64,000 bases of DNA from Burkholderiales bacterium (lineage in GTDB: Bacteria; Pseudomonadota; Gammaproteobacteria; Burkholderiales; Burkholderiaceae_C): the NCBI GenBank assembly GCA_025363275.1, contig JANYEE010000260.1, forward strand, positions 21,599 through 85,598. Direction: 5' to 3'. The translations under genes were made by a program, and so were the position numbers. How positions within the stretch are numbered: the stretch's first letter is position 1; each line of letters opens with the position of its first letter. Shown here piece by piece: positions 33,391 through 42,221 of this stretch. The notes below the pieces were generated by a model. It did no database searches. It saw nothing but the letters and a program-made list of their open reading frames with translations, and was not told where the DNA came from.

Positions 33391-33463
33391 TTTTAATTGC
33401 TATGAAATTAGTAGCTGCTCCCGCACATCTATCAACGGCTAGCAGCCAATTTGAGGCTGAATT
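33391..33463 (+). repeat. Dispersed repeat, family 1, copy B, overlapping the hisD start
   Basis: aattgctatgaaattagtagctgctcccgc...ggctagcagccaatttgaggctgaatt; same core as copies A, C, D, E. Confidence 0.55.
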
Positions 33464-34718
33464 CAAAGCCCGCCTGCATTGGGCTGCCGACACCGATGCG
33501 TCCATTGAGACCAGCGTGGCGGCTATTTTGCAAGACGTGCAAGGGCGCGGCGATACAGCGGTGCTGGAGTACACCGCCCGCTGGGACCATGTGCAGGCCG
33601 CCACGGTGGCCGAGCTGGAGCTGACCCAGGCCGAACTCAAAGCCGCGTTTGACAGCATTCCCGCACAGCAGCGCATCGCCCTGGAAGCCGCGGCCAAACG
33701 TGTGCGCACCTACCACGAAGCGCAGAAAAAAGCCTCGGGCGAGAGCTGGAGTTACCGCGATGAAGACGGCACATTGCTGGGCCAGAAGGTTACGCCGCTA
33801 GACCGCGTCGGCATTTATGTGCCTGGTGGCAAGGCCGCCTATCCGTCGTCGGTGTTGATGAACGCCATACCCGCCCATGTGGCCGGCGTGGGTGAAATCA
33901 TCATGGTCGTGCCAACTCCCAGGGGTGAAAAGAACGCCCTGGTGTTGGCTGCCGCTTATGTGGCTGGCGTCACCCGCGCCTTCACCATTGGTGGTGCGCA
34001 GGCGGTGGCCGCGTTGGCCTATGGCACAGAGAGCATCCCTGCCGTGCACAAGATCACTGGCCCCGGCAATGCCTATGTGGCTGCTGCCAAGCGCCGCGTG
34101 TTCGGCACCGTGGGCATCGACATGATTGCCGGCCCAAGTGAGATTTTGGTGTTGGCCGACGGCACTACGCCGCCCGACTGGGTGGCCATGGACTTGTTCA
34201 GCCAAGCGGAACACGACGAACTGGCGCAGAGCATTCTGCTGTGCCCCGACGCCGCCTATATCGCCCAAGTGCAAGAGAGTATCAACCGCCTGCTGCCCGA
34301 CATGCCCCGCGCCGAGATCATTGCCAAAAGCCTGACCGACCGTGGCGCACTGATATTGACCCGCAGTATGCAAGAGGCCTGTGAGATCAGTAACCGCATT
34401 GCGCCGGAGCATTTGGAGGTGTCCAGTCAAGATCCGCATAAGTGGGAGCCCCTGCTCAAACACGCGGGCGCCATCTTCTTGGGTGCGTTCACCAGCGAAT
34501 CTTTAGGCGACTACTGCGCTGGCCCCAACCACGTGCTGCCCACCAGCGGCACGGCCCGCTTTAGCAGCCCGCTGGGTGTGTATGACTTCCAAAAGCGCAG
34601 TAGCCTGATTGAGGTGAGCGAGCAGGGCGCGCAGACGCTGGGCCAGATTGCCAGCGTGTTGGCCCATGGCGAAGGCCTGCAGGCCCACGCCAGAGCGGCC
34701 GAGATGCGACTCAAGTAA
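33402..34718 (+). CDS. hisD: Histidinol dehydrogenase
   Basis: [43 protein letters not shown] 33402 within a repeat-like sequence. Confidence 0.96.
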
Positions 34719-34795
34719 TCGCGTGGGTTAATCCCGCAGGACCAGCGCCGTTTGGCAAACGGCGTAAGAATGCAGGCGTTCACGAGACCAATGCC

Positions 34796-35182
34796 ATGCC
34801 CCAAATACACCGCCCCCTTTTTACTTTGAACGTGCTGCGCACTGCTGCGGCTACCGTAGCGCTTGGCCTGGCTTGCGGCGCCGCGTCGGCCATGACCCTG
34901 CGTCAAATGCGCGCGCTGGAAAAGTCGGACAAAAAGCAAGGCGAGAACTACATCAACTACTACTTGGTTGGCGCGATGGAGGGCGCACTCGAAGCGCACA
35001 CCCAGGCCGTTCGCAACGGCGCCAAACCCAGCATCTGCCTGAATGGTCGCCGTTTGGAGCCGCACATGGCGCGCAGCCTGTTTGACACGGAACTCCAACG
35101 CAATGAGGGCGTCTACGAAGCGGACATGTCGGTGCAACTGGTGTTGACCAATGCCTTGGTCGCGGTGTACGCCTGCCCATGA
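34796..35182 (+). CDS. Small secreted protein, architecture resembling the Rap1a/Tai family
   Basis: Signal peptide to ASA, INYYLVGAMEGALEAH, Cys in SICLNGRRLEP and C-terminal AVYACP. Confidence 0.55.
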   Translation: MPQIHRPLFTLNVLRTAAATVALGLACGAASAMTLRQMRALEKSDKKQGENYINYYLVGAMEGALEAHTQAVRNGAKPSICLNGRRLEPHMARSLFDTELQRNEGVYEADMSVQLVLTNALVAVYACP

Positions 35183-35195
35183 GCGCAACGAAGTG

Positions 35196-35266
35196 TTGGT
35201 GCTATAAAAATAATAGCAACACAGGTAATAAATTCAAGGGCCTCAGCCCGATTTGACTTCAGAAAT
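35196..35266 (+). repeat. Dispersed repeat, family 1, copy C
   Basis: gctataaaaataatagcaacacaggtaataaattcaagggcctcagcccgatttgacttca; aligns to reverse complement of copy D. Confidence 0.65.
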
Positions 35267-35407
35267 ATCCAAAATCGCTGAAAAATACCCCCAGAGCCTG
35301 CCGCTCAGCCCCGTCGGCAGGTTCTGATACGCGCGCGCAGCGCAGGGCGCGTGGATATTGGGGACAATCCTGCATAGCCGTCCTTTCACCTCCCAAGAGT
35401 CAGTCCC

Positions 35408-36607
35408 TTGCTCCAACTTGCCCCTTACAAAGCCCTGTTTTCTGACCGTGAACTCAAGCGCATCGTTTTATCCTCCATCCTGCCGCGCCTCCCCGCAGGT
35501 ATCAATGGGCTCTCGCTGACCCTGTTGGTGCAGTCGTTGTATGGCTCGTTTGCGGTCGGTGGCACGGTGAGTGCGGCCTATCTCATGGCGTTAGGGGTTG
35601 CATCACCCTTGCTCGGGCGCTTTGTGGACCAGCGCGGGCCACGCGCGGCCATGCTACCGTTTGGTATCGCCCACGCGCTCGCGCTGGCCTTGCTGGTGGC
35701 CGCTGCACTGTTGCGGGTATCGCCATCCTGGCTGATGGTGTTTGCGCTCTTGGCGGGGATGACGTTTCCCCCGGTATCCATGACGGTACGTGCCATGTGG
35801 CGCAAGTCCAAGTTGCCTGACCACACCAAGCAGTTGGGCTTCGCCTTGGAGGGCGTGATCATGGAATCCATCTTTGTGTGTGGCCCTTTGATCGTTAGCT
35901 TTTTCTTGCTATTCAACGCACCGGCCGTGGCTTTGCTATTTTCAGCCTGCGCCACGTTGGTGGGTATCGTGTTTTTTTCGCGCTCGGGTGCCCTGGAGCG
36001 CTGGGGCGACGTCGAACCCGCACAGCGCCATTGGTTGGGGCCACTCAGACTCCTGGGCGTGCGCCGGGCTTTGCTTGTCTCCATGCTGCTGGGCGCCAGT
36101 TTTGGGTTGCAAGAAATTGGCATGATGGCCGTGACTAAAGCGGCCGACAAGCAGGCTGCCGTGGGCTGGTTGTTTGCGGCGTATTCGGTACCGTCGGCTC
36201 TTGCCGGCTTGTTGTACGGCACGCGCCAGTTTGCCTGGCCTCTGAACCGCCAGATGGCGCTGGGGCATGTGTGGATCGCCGCTTTAAGTCTGCTGCTCAC
36301 CCAGGTGTCGTCACTCTGGGTGTTCGCCCTGGGTTGCGCCGTGTGCGGCATGGCCGTTGGGCCGGCGATTACTGCAAGCCAAATGCAGCTGGGTAAGTTG
36401 ACAACGGCCGAGTACACCACCGAAGCCTTCACCTGGAGCATGACGCTGTTCATGGTGGCATTGGGCGCCGCATTTGCCTGTGGCGGCTGGCTTGTGGACA
36501 CCTACGGTGTGGGTGCACCCATGTTCTGCGCCGCATGCACCGCGAGCCTGGGCGCGCTGATGTGCTTGCGCGTCCCGGAGATCTTTGCGCCCCAGACGGC
36601 CGCCTAG
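35408..36607 (+). CDS. MFS family transporter (TTG start)
   Basis: 399 aa, about 12 TM; RLPAGINGLSLTLLVQSLYGSFAVGGTVSAAYLMALGVASPLLGRFVDQRGPR. Confidence 0.85.
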   Translation: MLQLAPYKALFSDRELKRIVLSSILPRLPAGINGLSLTLLVQSLYGSFAVGGTVSAAYLMALGVASPLLGRFVDQRGPRAAMLPFGIAHALALALLVAAALLRVSPSWLMVFALLAGMTFPPVSMTVRAMWRKSKLPDHTKQLGFALEGVIMESIFVCGPLIVSFFLLFNAPAVALLFSACATLVGIVFFSRSGALERWGDVEPAQRHWLGPLRLLGVRRALLVSMLLGASFGLQEIGMMAVTKAADKQAAVGWLFAAYSVPSALAGLLYGTRQFAWPLNRQMALGHVWIAALSLLLTQVSSLWVFALGCAVCGMAVGPAITASQMQLGKLTTAEYTTEAFTWSMTLFMVALGAAFACGGWLVDTYGVGAPMFCAACTASLGALMCLRVPEIFAPQTAA

Positions 36608-36636: not shown

Positions 36637-36671
36637 TTACACGAATTTCGTGTAACACGAAATTCGTGTAA
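36637..36671. promoter_or_regulatory. Putative operator of the RHH/PIN toxin-antitoxin module (35-bp palindrome)
   Basis: TTACACGAATTTCGTGT-A-ACACGAAATTCGTGTAA: perfect 17-bp arms, each half itself containing a 15-bp palindrome; ends 10 bp before the antitoxin ATG. Confidence 0.75.
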
Positions 36672-36681
36672 ACTACAAACC

Positions 36682-36903
36682 ATGAAAAACGTCACTATCA
36701 CCGTAGAAGACGCCACCCTGGAGTGGGTGCGCATCGAAGCGGCCAGACGCAACACCAGCGTGTCGCGCCTGGTGGGTGAGATGCTGACCGACAAAATGCA
36801 GTTTGACGATACCTATGCCCGAGCCCAGCGCGATTGGGTGGCGGATACCTCGTCGTTCAGTTCGGGAGGCAAGGCCTACCCGACACGTGGGGGCAGCGAA
36901 TGA
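36682..36903 (+). CDS. Ribbon-helix-helix (VapB-like) antitoxin
   Basis: MKNVTITVEDATLEWVRIEAARRNTSVSRLVGEMLTDKM CopG/RHH motif; ATG 36682; followed by PIN toxin. Confidence 0.85.
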   Translation: MKNVTITVEDATLEWVRIEAARRNTSVSRLVGEMLTDKMQFDDTYARAQRDWVADTSSFSSGGKAYPTRGGSE

Positions 36904-36933
36904 CGCGCAGCGAAGAGCGTGGGGGCCAAGGCG
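36886..36933 (+). repeat. Dispersed repeat, family 2, copy B, spanning the antitoxin 3' end and toxin leader
   Basis: cacgtgggggcagcgaatgacgcgcagcgaagagcgtgggggccaagg; inverted counterpart of the 32643-32728 repeat. Confidence 0.55.
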
Positions 36934-36936
36934 ACC

Positions 36937-37401
36937 ATGGCTAGCGCTTTGCCCGAGGCGGGTGCCATCGTCTTCGTTGACACCAGCGTTTTGCTGGCGG
37001 CCGACGACGCGCATGACGCCACCCAACAAACCCTCGTGCGTGCCTGGATGCAGGCGCTATGGCAGCACCGCGCCGGACGCGTTAGCACGCAGGTCCTCAA
37101 CGCCTACTACGTCGGCGCGACCCGCCACTTCTGTTTGCCCCAGGGCGATGCGCGCGCCAAGCTGCGCCGCATGCAGCTGTGGCAGCCCTGGCAAATTGAC
37201 CACCAGACGGTGGAGACCGCCTGGGGTGTCGAAGCCCGCTTTGGACTGCCGTATTGGGATGCGCTGATCGTCGCCTCCGCCGCCCAAAGCGGGGCCAGCC
37301 ATGTGCTATCGCTGGATTTGCAGCACCAACAGCAAATCGACGGCATCACTATCCTCAACCCCTTGCTGGCCACCCCGGGCGACCTAGGCCTTACCCCATG
37401 A
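36937..37401 (+). CDS. PIN-domain (VapC-like) toxin
   Basis: VFVDTSVLLAADD, VSTQVLNAYYV, LPYWDALIVASAAQSGASHVLSLDLQ: PIN acidic residues; stop TGA overlaps hisC ATG. Confidence 0.88.
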   Translation: MASALPEAGAIVFVDTSVLLAADDAHDATQQTLVRAWMQALWQHRAGRVSTQVLNAYYVGATRHFCLPQGDARAKLRRMQLWQPWQIDHQTVETAWGVEARFGLPYWDALIVASAAQSGASHVLSLDLQHQQQIDGITILNPLLATPGDLGLTP

Positions 37402-38549
37402 CTTCCACTCCCGATACCGACCCCAACGTCACCAGCCTGATCGCCCGCCGCATCCGCCAGGACGTGCAGTCCATGCACGCCTACGCGATTCAAGACAGCG
37501 TGGGAATGGTCAAGCTGGACGCGATGGAAAACCCGCACCGCCTGCCGCCCGAGCTGCAGGCCGAGTTGGGTGCGCGACTGGGTACCCTGGCGTTGAACCG
37601 CTATCCGGACGGCCGGGTGAATGATCTGCGCCGCGCACTGGCCGCCCACGCCGCCATGCCCGCGGGCTTTGACATCATGCTGGGCAATGGCTCGGATGAA
37701 CTGATTTCGCTTTTGGCCATGGCTTGCGACGTGCCCACCGTTCCCGGCCAAGCCAAACCCGCCGTGCTGGCCCCGGTGCCGGGTTTTGTGATGTACGCGA
37801 TGAGCGCCGCGCTGCAGGGGCTGGACTTTATTGGCGTGCCCCTGACGCCTAGCTTTGCACTAGACGTGCCCGCCATGGTGCAACGCATTGCGGACCAAAA
37901 GCCCGCCATCGTTTACCTGGCTTACCCTAACAACCCCACCGCCAATTTATGGGATGCGGGCGACATGGCCGAAGTGATTACAGCTGCACGCTCGGCTGGC
38001 AGCATTGTGGCCATTGACGAGGCTTACCAACCGTTTTCCAGCCGCACCTATCTGGATGTGATCCGCTCCGCTCCGGCCGAGAACAGCCATGTGCTGCTGA
38101 TGCGCACCATGAGCAAGTTTGGCCTGGCTGGTGTGCGCATCGGCTACATGATGGGTCCCGCCGCGCTGGTGCAGCAGGTCGACAAATTGCGCCCACCCTA
38201 CAACATTAGTGTGTTGAATTACGAATGCGCGCTGTTTGCGCTGGCCCACCAGGACGTGTTTGCCGCCCAGGCCGCCGACATCCGCGCCCAGCGCGCGCGC
38301 CTGCTGGCCACGTTGGGCGCGACGCCGGGGCTCACCGTGTTTGAGAGCGATGCCAACATGATTCTGGTGCGCATCGACGGTGAGGCCCCTGACCGCGCCC
38401 AAAAAGTCTTCGATGGCATGAAAGCCCGTGGTGTTCTGGTCAAGAACGTTTCTAAAATGCACCCACTGTTGGCGCATTGTTTGCGTTTGACCGTAGGCAC
38501 GGCCTCTGAAAACGACCACATGATTGTTGCCCTGCAAAATTCACTATGA
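37398..38549 (+). CDS. hisC: Histidinol-phosphate aminotransferase
   Basis: [44 protein letters not shown]; start moved to ATG 37398 (ATGA overlap). Confidence 0.95.
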
Positions 38550-39190
38550 CTACCAATTACCCTTTGACCGAGGTCCCCGATCCTCACAGCGCGGCCAACA
38601 CTGACCGTGTGGCTGAGGTGTCCCGCAACACCGCGGAAACCAAGATCCGCGTGCGCGTCAATCTGGACGGTACGGGCCAGGCGCGCCTGTCCACCGGCAT
38701 TGGTTTTTTTGACCACATGCTCGACCAGATCGCGCGCCACGGCCTGATTGACCTGGACATTGAAGCCGAAGGCGACCTGCACATTGACGGCCACCACACC
38801 GTGGAAGACGTGGGCATCACCCTGGGCCAGGCCTTTCACAAAGCGGTGGGCGACAAAAAGGGCATCCGCCGTTATGGCCACGCCTATGTGCCGCTGGATG
38901 AAGCGCTGTCCCGCGTGGTGATCGATTTTTCGGGCCGCCCTGGCTTGGTGATGGACGTGCCCTTCAAGAGCGGCATGATTGGCGCGTTTGACACGCAGCT
39001 GACCCACGAATTCTTCCAGGGCTTTGTGAACCACGCCTTTGTGACGCTGCACATCGACAACCTCAAGGGCGAAAACGCCCACCACCAGGCCGAGACCGTG
39101 TTCAAGGCCTTCGCGCGTGCGCTGCGCTTTGCGCTGGAGCGCGACCCGCGTGCGCTGGGTACGATTCCGTCGACCAAGGGGAGTTTGTAG
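38546..39190 (+). CDS. hisB: Imidazoleglycerol-phosphate dehydratase
   Basis: [33 protein letters not shown] overlap with hisC. Confidence 0.97.
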
Positions 39191-39220
39191 TTGTGAGCCT
39201 TCCCAACGCCATGTTCACCA

Positions 39221-39289
39221 GTTTTGAATCCAAATCGGCCTGGGGCCCTTGTAAATCCTGCCTGAGTAGCTATCAAATTAATAGCGACT
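39221..39289 (-). repeat. Dispersed repeat, family 1, copy D (reverse orientation)
   Basis: ttttgaatccaaatcggcctggggcccttgtaaatcctgcctgagtagctatcaaattaatagc. Confidence 0.65.
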
Positions 39290-39299
39290 GTCTGCCATC

Positions 39300-39956
39300 A
39301 TGAAAAAAGTAGCAGTCGTCGACTACGGTATGGGTAACCTGCGTTCGGTCACCCAGGCTGTGGTGCATGCCGCTGCAGGGTCGGATGTTGAGGTGGTCTG
39401 GGCCCGCACCCCGCAAGAGGTGATGGATGCCGAACGCGTGGTGCTGCCTGGCCAGGGCGGCATGCGCGATTGCATGCGCGAGCTGGTTGATTCCGACATG
39501 TTCGACGCCGTGATGCACGCCGCCGCGCACAAACCGCTGATGGGCGTGTGCGTAGGCATGCAAATGTTGCTGGACCACTCCGAGGAGCTGGACACCCCGT
39601 GCTTGGGCCTGATTCCTGGCGAAGTGGTCAAGTTTGACCTAGTCGGGCAAATTCAGCCTGACGGCAGCCGTTACAAAGTGCCCCAGATGGGTTGGAACCA
39701 GGTCTGGCAGGACACTACAAACGGTGCGCGCCACCCGGTCTGGGGCGAAGTGCCGGACGGTAGTTACTTCTACTTTGTGCACAGCTACTACACCCGACCG
39801 TCTGATGCGCGCCACAGCGCGGGCGTTACGGACTACGGACAACGCTTTTCCAGCGCAATAGCGCGCGATAATATTTTTGCGACGCAATTTCACCCCGAAA
39901 AAAGCGCCGTGCACGGTTTGGCCCTTTACCGCAACTTTTTGCACTGGAATCCCTGA
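39300..39956 (+). CDS. hisH: Imidazole glycerol phosphate synthase subunit HisH
   Basis: [35 protein letters not shown] glutaminase motifs. Confidence 0.97.
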
Positions 39957-40045
39957 GTTCCCCTTGCCGCATAAAAACGCCGCACGCCACACCACTTTGG
40001 CATTCTGATTTCTTCCGCCTTTTTTCCTCCACCCACTGAAGCACC

Positions 40046-40786
40046 ATGCTTTTAATTCCTGCGATCGATCTCAAAGACGGCCACTGCGTACGCCTCAAAC
40101 AAGGCGATATGGACCAATCCACCACCTTCGGCGAAGACCCTGCGGTCATGGCCCGGCGTTGGGTGGACCAGGGGGCAAGGCGTCTGCACTTGGTAGATCT
40201 GAACGGTGCGTTCGCCGGGCACCCCAAAAACGAGGCCGCGATCCGCAAGATCCTGAAGGAAGTGGGTAGCGAGATTGACGTGCAACTGGGCGGCGGCATC
40301 CGTGACCTGGACACCATCGAGCGCTACCTGGACGCCGGCTTGCGTTTTGTGATCATCGGTACGGCTGCTGTCAAGAACCCTGGCTTTTTGCAGGATGCCT
40401 GTACCGCATTTGGCGGCCACATCATCGTGGGCCTCGACGCACGCGATGGCAAGGTGGCCACCGACGGCTGGAGCAAGCTGACCCGCCACGATGTGATCGA
40501 CCTGGGCAAGAAGTTTGAAGACTACGGCGTCGAAGGCATCATCTACACCGACATCGGTCGCGACGGCATGCTCACTGGCATCAACATCGACGCTACCGTC
40601 AAGCTGGCGCAAGCCCTGACCATCCCCGTGATCGCTTCGGGTGGTTTGTCCAATATGGCTGACATCGAAGCCCTGTGCGAGGTGGAAAGCGAAGGCGTGG
40701 AAGGCGTGATCTGCGGACGTGCGATTTACAGCGGTGATCTGGACTTTCAAAAGGCGCAAGAACGCGCAGATGAATTGAATGGCTGA
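40046..40786 (+). CDS. hisA: Phosphoribosylformimino-5-aminoimidazole carboxamide ribotide isomerase
   Basis: [32 protein letters not shown]. Confidence 0.97.
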
Positions 40787-40818
40787 GCCTGAGAGGCTTA
40801 GACGGGTTTCCTCGTTAT

Positions 40819-40842
40819 ACTTGCACCATATTCTGTACAAGT
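40819..40842. promoter_or_regulatory. Putative YefM operator
   Basis: ACTTGCACcatattctGTACAAGT inverted repeat (7/8 match) including hexamer TGTACA, 18 bp before the yefM ATG. Confidence 0.6.
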
Positions 40843-40857
40843 CAAAAAGAGCCAGAT

Positions 40858-41112
40858 ATGAAAGTCGTCACCTACTCCGAAGCCCGCAGCGCCCTGAAAA
40901 CGGTGCTGGACCGCGTGCATGACGACGCCGATGTGACGGTTATCAGTCGCCGCGATGGAGCGGACGCAGTGGTTATGTCTTTGGATCATTACCAAAGCTT
41001 GATGGAAACCATGCATCTGCTGGGCACTCCGGCGAATGCAGCACATTTGGCTAAATCCATTGCGCAGCACAAAGCGGGCAAGCGCACCCGGCGCGCACTG
41101 ATTCAGGCCTGA
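40858..41112 (+). CDS. yefM: YefM/Phd-type antitoxin
   Basis: MKVVTYSEARSALKTVLDRVHDDADVTVISRRDGADAVVMSLDHYQSLMETMHLL. Confidence 0.92.
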   Translation: MKVVTYSEARSALKTVLDRVHDDADVTVISRRDGADAVVMSLDHYQSLMETMHLLGTPANAAHLAKSIAQHKAGKRTRRALIQA

Positions 41113-41394
41113 TTGGGCCGCTTCCGCGTGGCGCGCAGCATTCGTTTTACTCCTGCGGCGTGGGACGATTACTTGTACTGGCAGGGGCAAGACAAGAAAA
41201 CACTTCGCCGTATCAATACCCTGATCGAAGCAGCGGTGCGCGACCCATTTGCAGGTATCGGCAAACCAGAGCCTCTAATGGGCAACCTGTCGGGCTACTG
41301 GTCACGCCGCATCGATGAAACCCACCGATTGGTCTATTCCGTAGACGATTCTGATCTGGATGTGATTGCGTGTCGGGGACATTACGATGATTAA
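41113..41394 (+). CDS. yoeB: YoeB-type mRNA interferase toxin
   Basis: [69 protein letters not shown]...CRGHYDD; TTG 41113 or GTG 41128 start. Confidence 0.93.
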
Positions 41395-41441
41395 AGCAGT
41401 TCGCCGAATCCCGCTGTCAACACCCCTTCTACAATCGACGC

Positions 41442-42221
41442 ATGCTCGCTAAAAGAATCATTCCTTGCCTGGACGTGACCGGTGGCCGCGTTGTCAAGGG
41501 CGTTAACTTCACCCAGTTGCGAGACGCAGGGGACCCGGTAGAAATTGCTGCGCGCTACAACGAGCAGGGCGCCGACGAACTCACGTTTCTCGACATTACC
41601 GCCACCAGCGATGGGCGCGATTTGATTCTGCACATCATCGAAGCGGTGGCATCGCAAGTCTTCATCCCACTGACCGTGGGCGGAGGCGTGCGTACCGTGG
41701 ACGACGTGCGGCGCCTGTTGAACGCGGGTGCGGATAAAACCAGTTTCAACTCGGCAGCGATTGCGAATCCGCAGGTCATTGAAGACGCTTCACTCAAATA
41801 CGGCGCGCAGTGCATCGTGGTGGCCATTGACGCCAAACGCCGATCGGAAGAAGACGCCAAAGTGCGCGGTGCGGGTTGGGATGTTTACAGCCACGGTGGC
41901 CGTAAAAATACCGGCTTGGACGCCGTGGCCTGGGCGACCGAGATGGCTCGGCGCGGCGCCGGTGAGATTTTGCTGACCAGCATGGACCGGGACGGCACCA
42001 AGAGCGGTTTTGATTTGGCCCTGACCCGCGCGGTAGCTGATGCGGTCAGTGTGCCGGTGATTGCCAGTGGCGGCGTGGGCAACCTGGACCATCTGGCCGA
42101 TGGCGTGCAGCAGGGCGGGGCGGATGCGGTGCTCGCCGCCAGCATTTTCCATTACGGTGAGTACACCGTGGGCCAGGCCAAGGCGCGCATGGCCGAGCGC
42201 GGAATTCCAGTCAGAATTTGA
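41442..42221 (+). CDS. hisF: Imidazole glycerol phosphate synthase subunit HisF
   Basis: [34 protein letters not shown]. Confidence 0.97.

Follow-up and report, generated by a model that had tools for sequence, protein, structure and literature searches.

A two-site palindrome as the probable operator of a VapBC module resident in a his operon

Main finding

The palindrome at positions 36637-36671 of the window (the whole 64-kb stretch of DNA analysed in this work) is best read as the operator of the neighboring vapB(C) genes, a reading strongly supported by comparison of related loci. It is likely that the palindrome serves as the autoregulatory operator of a VapBC module residing in the his operon, and that through it VapBC sets the expression of the later his genes. 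Computation established the binding-site-like repeats themselves and their occurrence exclusively alongside vapB, how the promoter elements are spaced, that the module is linked to hisC, that catalytic acids of VapC have been lost and that this protein is under selection. An antitoxin operator as such is the expected kind of thing, the unusual part being its setting. The features referred to below are the following.

33399-36607, forward strand: upstream neighbors hisD, a Rap1a-like gene (34796-35182) and an MFS transporter gene (35408-36607), assigned from gene calls and families.
36637-36671, no strand: putative two-site operator, entire (perfect 17-1-17 palindrome, 35 bp), assigned from sequence and simulations.
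36639-36653, no strand: putative operator site 1, ACACGAATTTCGTGT, from exact-site scans, kept in relatives.
36655-36669, no strand: putative operator site 2, ACACGAAATTCGTGT, in a 16-bp register with site 1, from exact-site scans, kept in relatives.
36669-36674, forward strand: predicted -10 element TAAACT, its first base being the last base of site 2, from its position relative to the start codon across loci.
36682-36903, forward strand: vapB, 73-aa RHH-type antitoxin, from the strand MKNVTITV and a weak Pfam DUF6364 match below the cut-off.
36937-37401, forward strand: vapC, 154-aa PIN-domain protein with catalytic residues D-A-D-D, from Pfam, a structure model and fold matches.
37398-38549, forward strand: hisC, its start overlapping the vapC stop (ATGA), from open reading frames.
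38546-42221, forward strand: hisB, hisH, hisA, yefM-yoeB (40858-41394) and hisF, downstream of the operator, from gene calls and families.

Architecture and rarity of the palindrome

The palindrome reads TTACACGAATTTCGTGT-A-ACACGAAATTCGTGTAA, with both 17-nt arms fully complementary and a spacer of 1 nt, and each half contains a nested 15-bp palindrome (ACACGAAWTTCGTGT). The two 15-mers are separated by one base and thus form a pair 16 bp apart. Both the 35-bp palindrome with 17-bp arms and the 15-bp palindrome in each half had been proposed in the initial annotation and were borne out: among the near-spacerless perfect inverted repeats of the window this is the longest, and the longest arms found in 20 simulated sequences of 64 kb each (order-1 Markov, with the dinucleotide make-up of the window) were 8-11 bp, versus 17 bp in the palindrome. 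The accompanying proposal of two adjacent sites held as well, with the addition that arrays of three sites in the same 16-bp register also occur among the related loci.

When up to three mismatches were allowed, the 15-mer had three matches in the window versus 1.3 expected, and the exact ones were the two sites of the palindrome, which are also the only exact copies in the 3.7-Mb genome. At two mismatches the genome-wide scan gave two extra single sites versus three for the reversed control. A genome-wide regulon for the 15-bp site was rejected, as further exact sites are absent from the genome.

Co-occurrence of the sites with vapB

In a sample of 200 genomes of the family, vapB is present in 63, with one full-strength copy per genome, and the tandem site, scanned for independently of the vapB search, is present in 59, in all of them at vapB. 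Such a distribution, with the site found in 59 of the 63 genomes having the antitoxin gene and in none of the 137 lacking it, is the one expected of an autoregulated operator; the reversed-pattern control gave no hits, and the other four vapB genomes carry weaker, degenerate versions of the site. A search with the PIN protein found 20 close loci, by name mostly from Rhodoferax, Curvibacter, Xenophilus and other Comamonadaceae, and one distant locus. The two sites in the 16-bp register precede vapB in every close locus having upstream DNA, while the DNA flanking them is mostly unrelated. Over 65 loci the information at the site positions is 1.4-2.0 bits, with the central base of each 15-mer free, and conservation is about 0.1 bit or less from about 7 bp upstream of site 1 outward.

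VapBC relatives in other families of the order do not adjoin hisC, and ACAC-N7-GTGT pairs in the same register were found in eight loci of VapBC relatives outside the his locus. Taken together, the co-occurrence, the conservation and the recurrence of the same design at vapB homologues outside the his locus make VapB the likely ligand of the palindrome and give strong support to the earlier suggestion that the latter is the operator of an RHH antitoxin.

The palindrome might instead be the site of an unrelated regulator of histidine biosynthesis, with the nearness of vapB being a coincidence of operon layout. Its location inside the his cluster, where it would affect hisC, suits this explanation; what makes it highly improbable is that no copy exists in the 137 family genomes lacking vapB (a hisC-like gene was found in 16 of the 16 checked) and that sites of the same design accompany vapB genes outside his operons. 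A role as an RNA element is equally improbable. The MFS transporter gene ends 29 bp before the palindrome, and in a read-through transcript from this gene the perfectly complementary arms would fold, possibly into a terminator or attenuator hairpin. Against this, there is no T-run, the repeat consists of two separate 15-bp dyads and not of one hairpin, the arms are fixed in their letters with no covariation, and the predicted transcription start is downstream of the repeat. The terminator or RNA element was rejected, as neither a terminator-like site nor an Rfam match was found and the sites behave as DNA dyads.

Promoter and predicted leaderless start

The vapB ATG (36682) is located 10 nt past the end of the palindrome, and no Shine-Dalgarno sequence was found in these 10 nt, in agreement with the initial annotation. 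The latter had also suggested a possible -10 element in 'TGTAAACT'; the predicted element is better read as TAAACT, and the extended -10 variant that this implied (TGn) was rejected because the TG of 'TGTAAACT' is out of register by one base. Transcription is predicted to start at about 36680-36682, that is, at the vapB ATG or 1-2 nt before it. No usable -35 element was found upstream of the predicted -10 in the window, and none is recognisable in the two-site promoter arrangement generally, which suggests a promoter that is weak or dependent on something else.

Two promoter arrangements are seen among the loci, and in both the palindromic sites overlap the module promoter (the predicted -10 in one, -35 and -10 in the other), so that both would be covered by bound protein. 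In the common arrangement, shared by the window and seen in 65 of the 80 loci in all, the first base of a TAnnnT hexamer coincides with the last base of site 2 or follows it directly, and 6-10 nt remain between the end of the hexamer and the start codon, most often 7, as in the window; a TAnnnT at that place ends within these limits in 68 of 70 loci. Loci with the later hexamer start usually also have the site shifted by one base away from the codon, so the distance between hexamer and codon is kept. With a -10 element at this distance the transcript would begin at the start codon or within a few bases of it. A Shine-Dalgarno core (GGAG, GAGG or AGGA) is found in 0 of the 65 loci. A -10 element near the start codon and a missing Shine-Dalgarno sequence are the marks of a leaderless mRNA, and the vapB mRNA is probably of this kind; the near-leaderless antitoxin mRNA suggested earlier thus gains support from the fixed distance and from the relatives. 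Leaderless transcripts of genes immediately preceded by a TA-rich motif are known from Burkholderia cenocepacia (PMC4603805).

The second arrangement, found in 10 mostly three-site loci, consists of TTGACA over site 1, a distance of 17 bp and GAnnnT within the next site, whose sequence no longer matches the palindrome at this very place. The outgroup pair L095/L096 has TTGACA, 17 bp and TATACT at the corresponding positions. Three-site operators combined with TTGACA-17-GAnnnT are present in L035, L043, L055, L059, L063, L068, L078 and similar loci, sometimes together with a Shine-Dalgarno sequence. All four catalytic acids of VapC are kept in seven of nine three-site loci, which suggests that the operator type and the state of the toxin may be linked.

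The his operon setting

In all 63 family loci with vapB, as well as in 17 of 17 named loci with complete data, hisC directly follows vapC, frequently with the 4-base overlap (-4) also seen in the window. In 13 family genomes without vapB, hisC is not accompanied by the sites; hisD abuts hisC in 10 of them. A greater frequency of split his operons in vapB-bearing genomes is no more than suggestive, since the other three of these 13 loci likewise had no hisD within the 1.5 kb covered. In four loci the gene just upstream of vapB is on the opposite strand, coding for an SBP_bac_3 (solute-binding) protein in L013 and L021, TIR-Mrr in L015 and T5orf172 in L017. In such loci the operator region would be the only ordinary promoter place for vapBC-hisC onward, unless there is a promoter inside vapBC. 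The vapB promoter is therefore probably the promoter of vapBC-hisCBHAF and the likely source of the hisC-operon transcripts, judging from gene order. In the window itself the genes before the palindrome point in the direction of vapB, and read-through from them could therefore reach hisC as well. The family-wide conserved vapBC-hisC arrangement, its probable promoter and the missing catalytic acid described below were all missed in the initial annotation.

That annotation had also suggested that bound protein could obstruct transcription from hisD into hisC. The corresponding explanation, which is compatible with the operator model, is that operator-bound VapBC mainly halts polymerase coming from hisD and the MFS gene and so insulates hisC, with no repression of a local promoter. 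The hisD match lies only some 50-170 bp from vapB in about 20 sampled genomes, and read-through would accordingly cross the sites. As the main role, however, a roadblock is rather unlikely, since in nearly every locus the promoter elements keep their register relative to the sites and the opposite-strand genes upstream in several genomes would leave little to block.

Enterobacterial his operons have an internal secondary promoter for the later his genes, in which no toxin-antitoxin operator is known to be involved. The literature searched, which took in few subscription journals, contained no account of a VapBC module within a his operon.

Several further observations were made in this region. 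A second toxin-antitoxin pair, YefM-YoeB, is located between hisA and hisF and occupies the same place only in L018 among the named loci. Most Rhodoferax-type loci, and Xenophilus L023 too, have the Rap1a-like small protein gene (below the Pfam cut-off) after hisD. The opposite-strand gene just upstream of vapB in L015 (L015:3568-4413) is a TIR-Mrr_cat fusion and a candidate defence gene. In L032, L064 and L065 the HisC encoded beside vapC is very divergent (with 4-6 changes per column on inner branches of the HisC tree), which suggests that hisC was replaced behind a retained vapBC.

VapB and VapC proteins

VapB begins with the strand MKNVTITV followed by a helix pattern typical of ribbon-helix-helix antitoxins, N3 and T5 being invariant. 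Among curated families only the sub-cut-off match to DUF6364 was found in Pfam and none in NCBIfam, and the basis for assigning VapB to the RHH type is therefore chiefly this sequence pattern; comparison with solved structures returned nothing convincing, and comparison with plasmids one distant match. The C-terminal Arg of VapB is conserved in most loci, and in Mycobacterium tuberculosis VapB11 such an Arg forms a salt bridge to the VapC active site (PMC6265470). At about 36889-36930, covering the end of vapB and the gap between vapB and vapC, there is a repeat-like stretch (GGGGGCAGCGAATGACGCGCAGCGAAGAGCGTGGGGGCCA), also present in L007 and L020, which alters the VapB C-terminus and has a single close copy in the genome.

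Two features of a VapBC module are present, namely a gene coding for a PIN-domain toxin (Pfam PIN 5.7e-9, above the cut-off) and, ending 33 bp before it, an upstream antitoxin gene with a predicted DNA-binding fold. The third, a full set of conserved catalytic acids, is lacking in the window, where VapC has D-A-D-D. As the start of vapC, position 36937 is more likely than a GTG at 36919. The protein is predicted to adopt the PIN fold with a mean pLDDT of 92.7 and matches VapC structures and PcrIIC1; NCBIfam matches to sigma factors were discarded as being far below the cut-offs.

In the alignment of 80 his-linked loci, the canonical residues D, E, D, D are found at the catalytic positions in 21, Asp/Glu exchanges in 15, and a non-acidic residue at one or more of these positions in 44. 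The Glu is replaced by Ala in the window and in nearly all close Rhodoferax-type loci, which predicts loss of the nuclease activity of VapC. Changes between the all-acid and non-acidic states number at least 10-11 on the HisC tree, or 12-13 under strict identity, this being a single-gene tree whose support values come from a short search and which includes three rows with divergent HisC. In relatives outside the his locus the acids read as intact, so most of the changes are probably losses. In close pairs with altered sites dN/dS of vapC is mostly about 0.02-0.15, with one pair at 0.32; VapC is thus under strong purifying selection despite its altered catalytic acids.

Proposed mechanism

Under the preferred operator reading, dimers of VapB, either free or complexed with VapC, would sit side by side on both 15-bp sites in the 16-bp register, covering the spacer and the -10 region of the vapB promoter and so repressing it. 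If VapB or the complex were lost, perhaps in response to a signal, the promoter would fire, and the resulting leaderless transcript, starting at the vapB codon or within a few bases of it, would extend across vapB-vapC to hisC and the genes after it. VapBC would in this way determine the expression level of the second half of the histidine cluster. Purifying selection on a VapC that has lost a catalytic acid suggests that it may be kept as a partner or co-repressor of VapB, not as an RNase toxin. A resident his-operon regulator derived from a toxin-antitoxin module would be the most economical account of these data. A further-reaching version is plausible, though we put it forward only tentatively: VapBC may be, in this family, an inherited part of the his operon and its dedicated regulator, in which the RNase activity of VapC was repeatedly lost, VapC serving as a co-repressor or sensor partner and the operator being the main control point of hisC and the genes following it.

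Alternatively, the module could be an ordinary, self-serving VapBC whose operator controls vapBC only, with the his position guarding against deletion and the effects on hisC being incidental. The same operator design is found at VapBCs elsewhere, in other families and with intact acids; 21 of the 80 his-linked VapCs have all four acids, 11 of these 21 having the leaderless-type promoter; and VapB keeps the C-terminal Arg, at the position reaching the VapC active site in VapB11 (PMC6265470). A mobile addiction module, however, would predict neither an unvarying location ahead of hisC wherever the family genomes have vapB, nor a single copy per genome, nor non-acidic catalytic changes in 44 of 80 loci accompanied by continued purifying selection on VapC. 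On balance this explanation is unlikely, though clearly better placed than the roadblock; an addiction module that merely occupies a sheltered location may exist, in particular where a lineage retains all four acids.

Comparison with known systems

Among described systems, FitAB of Neisseria gonorrhoeae and VapBC11 and VapBC30 of M. tuberculosis share with the his-linked VapBC an RHH-like VapB encoded upstream of a PIN-domain VapC, palindromes over the promoter with autorepression expected, and the conserved C-terminal Arg of VapB. The his-linked VapBC differs from them in being fixed before hisC family-wide, in the repeated loss of its catalytic acids and in a promoter that is likely leaderless. 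VapBC2 of Rickettsia felis, whose structure was determined together with promoter DNA (3zvk), and the Shigella VapBC are similar in the fold of VapC, and their complexes bind operator DNA, but their VapB is of the SpoVT/AbrB type, not RHH (PMC4803016). The Acidovorax citrulli VapBC (Aave_0579/0580) comes from the same bacterial group, and its function as a toxin-antitoxin module has been demonstrated; it has a VapB with an AbrB-like domain, clusters with Xanthomonas proteins and does not occur in group I strains (PMC4701950). A link between it and the his-linked VapBC was rejected, as the antitoxin class differs.

The E. coli YefM-YoeB operator likewise has two palindromes at a fixed spacing, one of them over the -10 element, and the spacing matters for cooperative binding; it differs in the Phd/YefM fold of the antitoxin, the 12-bp spacing and the TGTACA core (PMC4803016). 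The best match of VapC among solved structures, in both sequence and fold, is PcrIIC1, the PIN-like partner of CbCas9 (8wmm), which by the entry title is a VapC-like protein in a non-toxin setting; it differs in acting with Cas9 and in having no link to a his operon.

Significance

The role of chromosomal toxin-antitoxin modules is a matter of long-standing dispute. The his-linked VapBC offers many natural replicates of one module in one place before hisC across the family, in which the operator has been kept almost letter for letter while the active site of the toxin was lost many times and the protein conserved. The arrangement would bear on the control of histidine synthesis in these bacteria, a role for which no report was found in the literature searched, and its many replicates make the idea of a module turned regulator directly testable in harmless environmental species.
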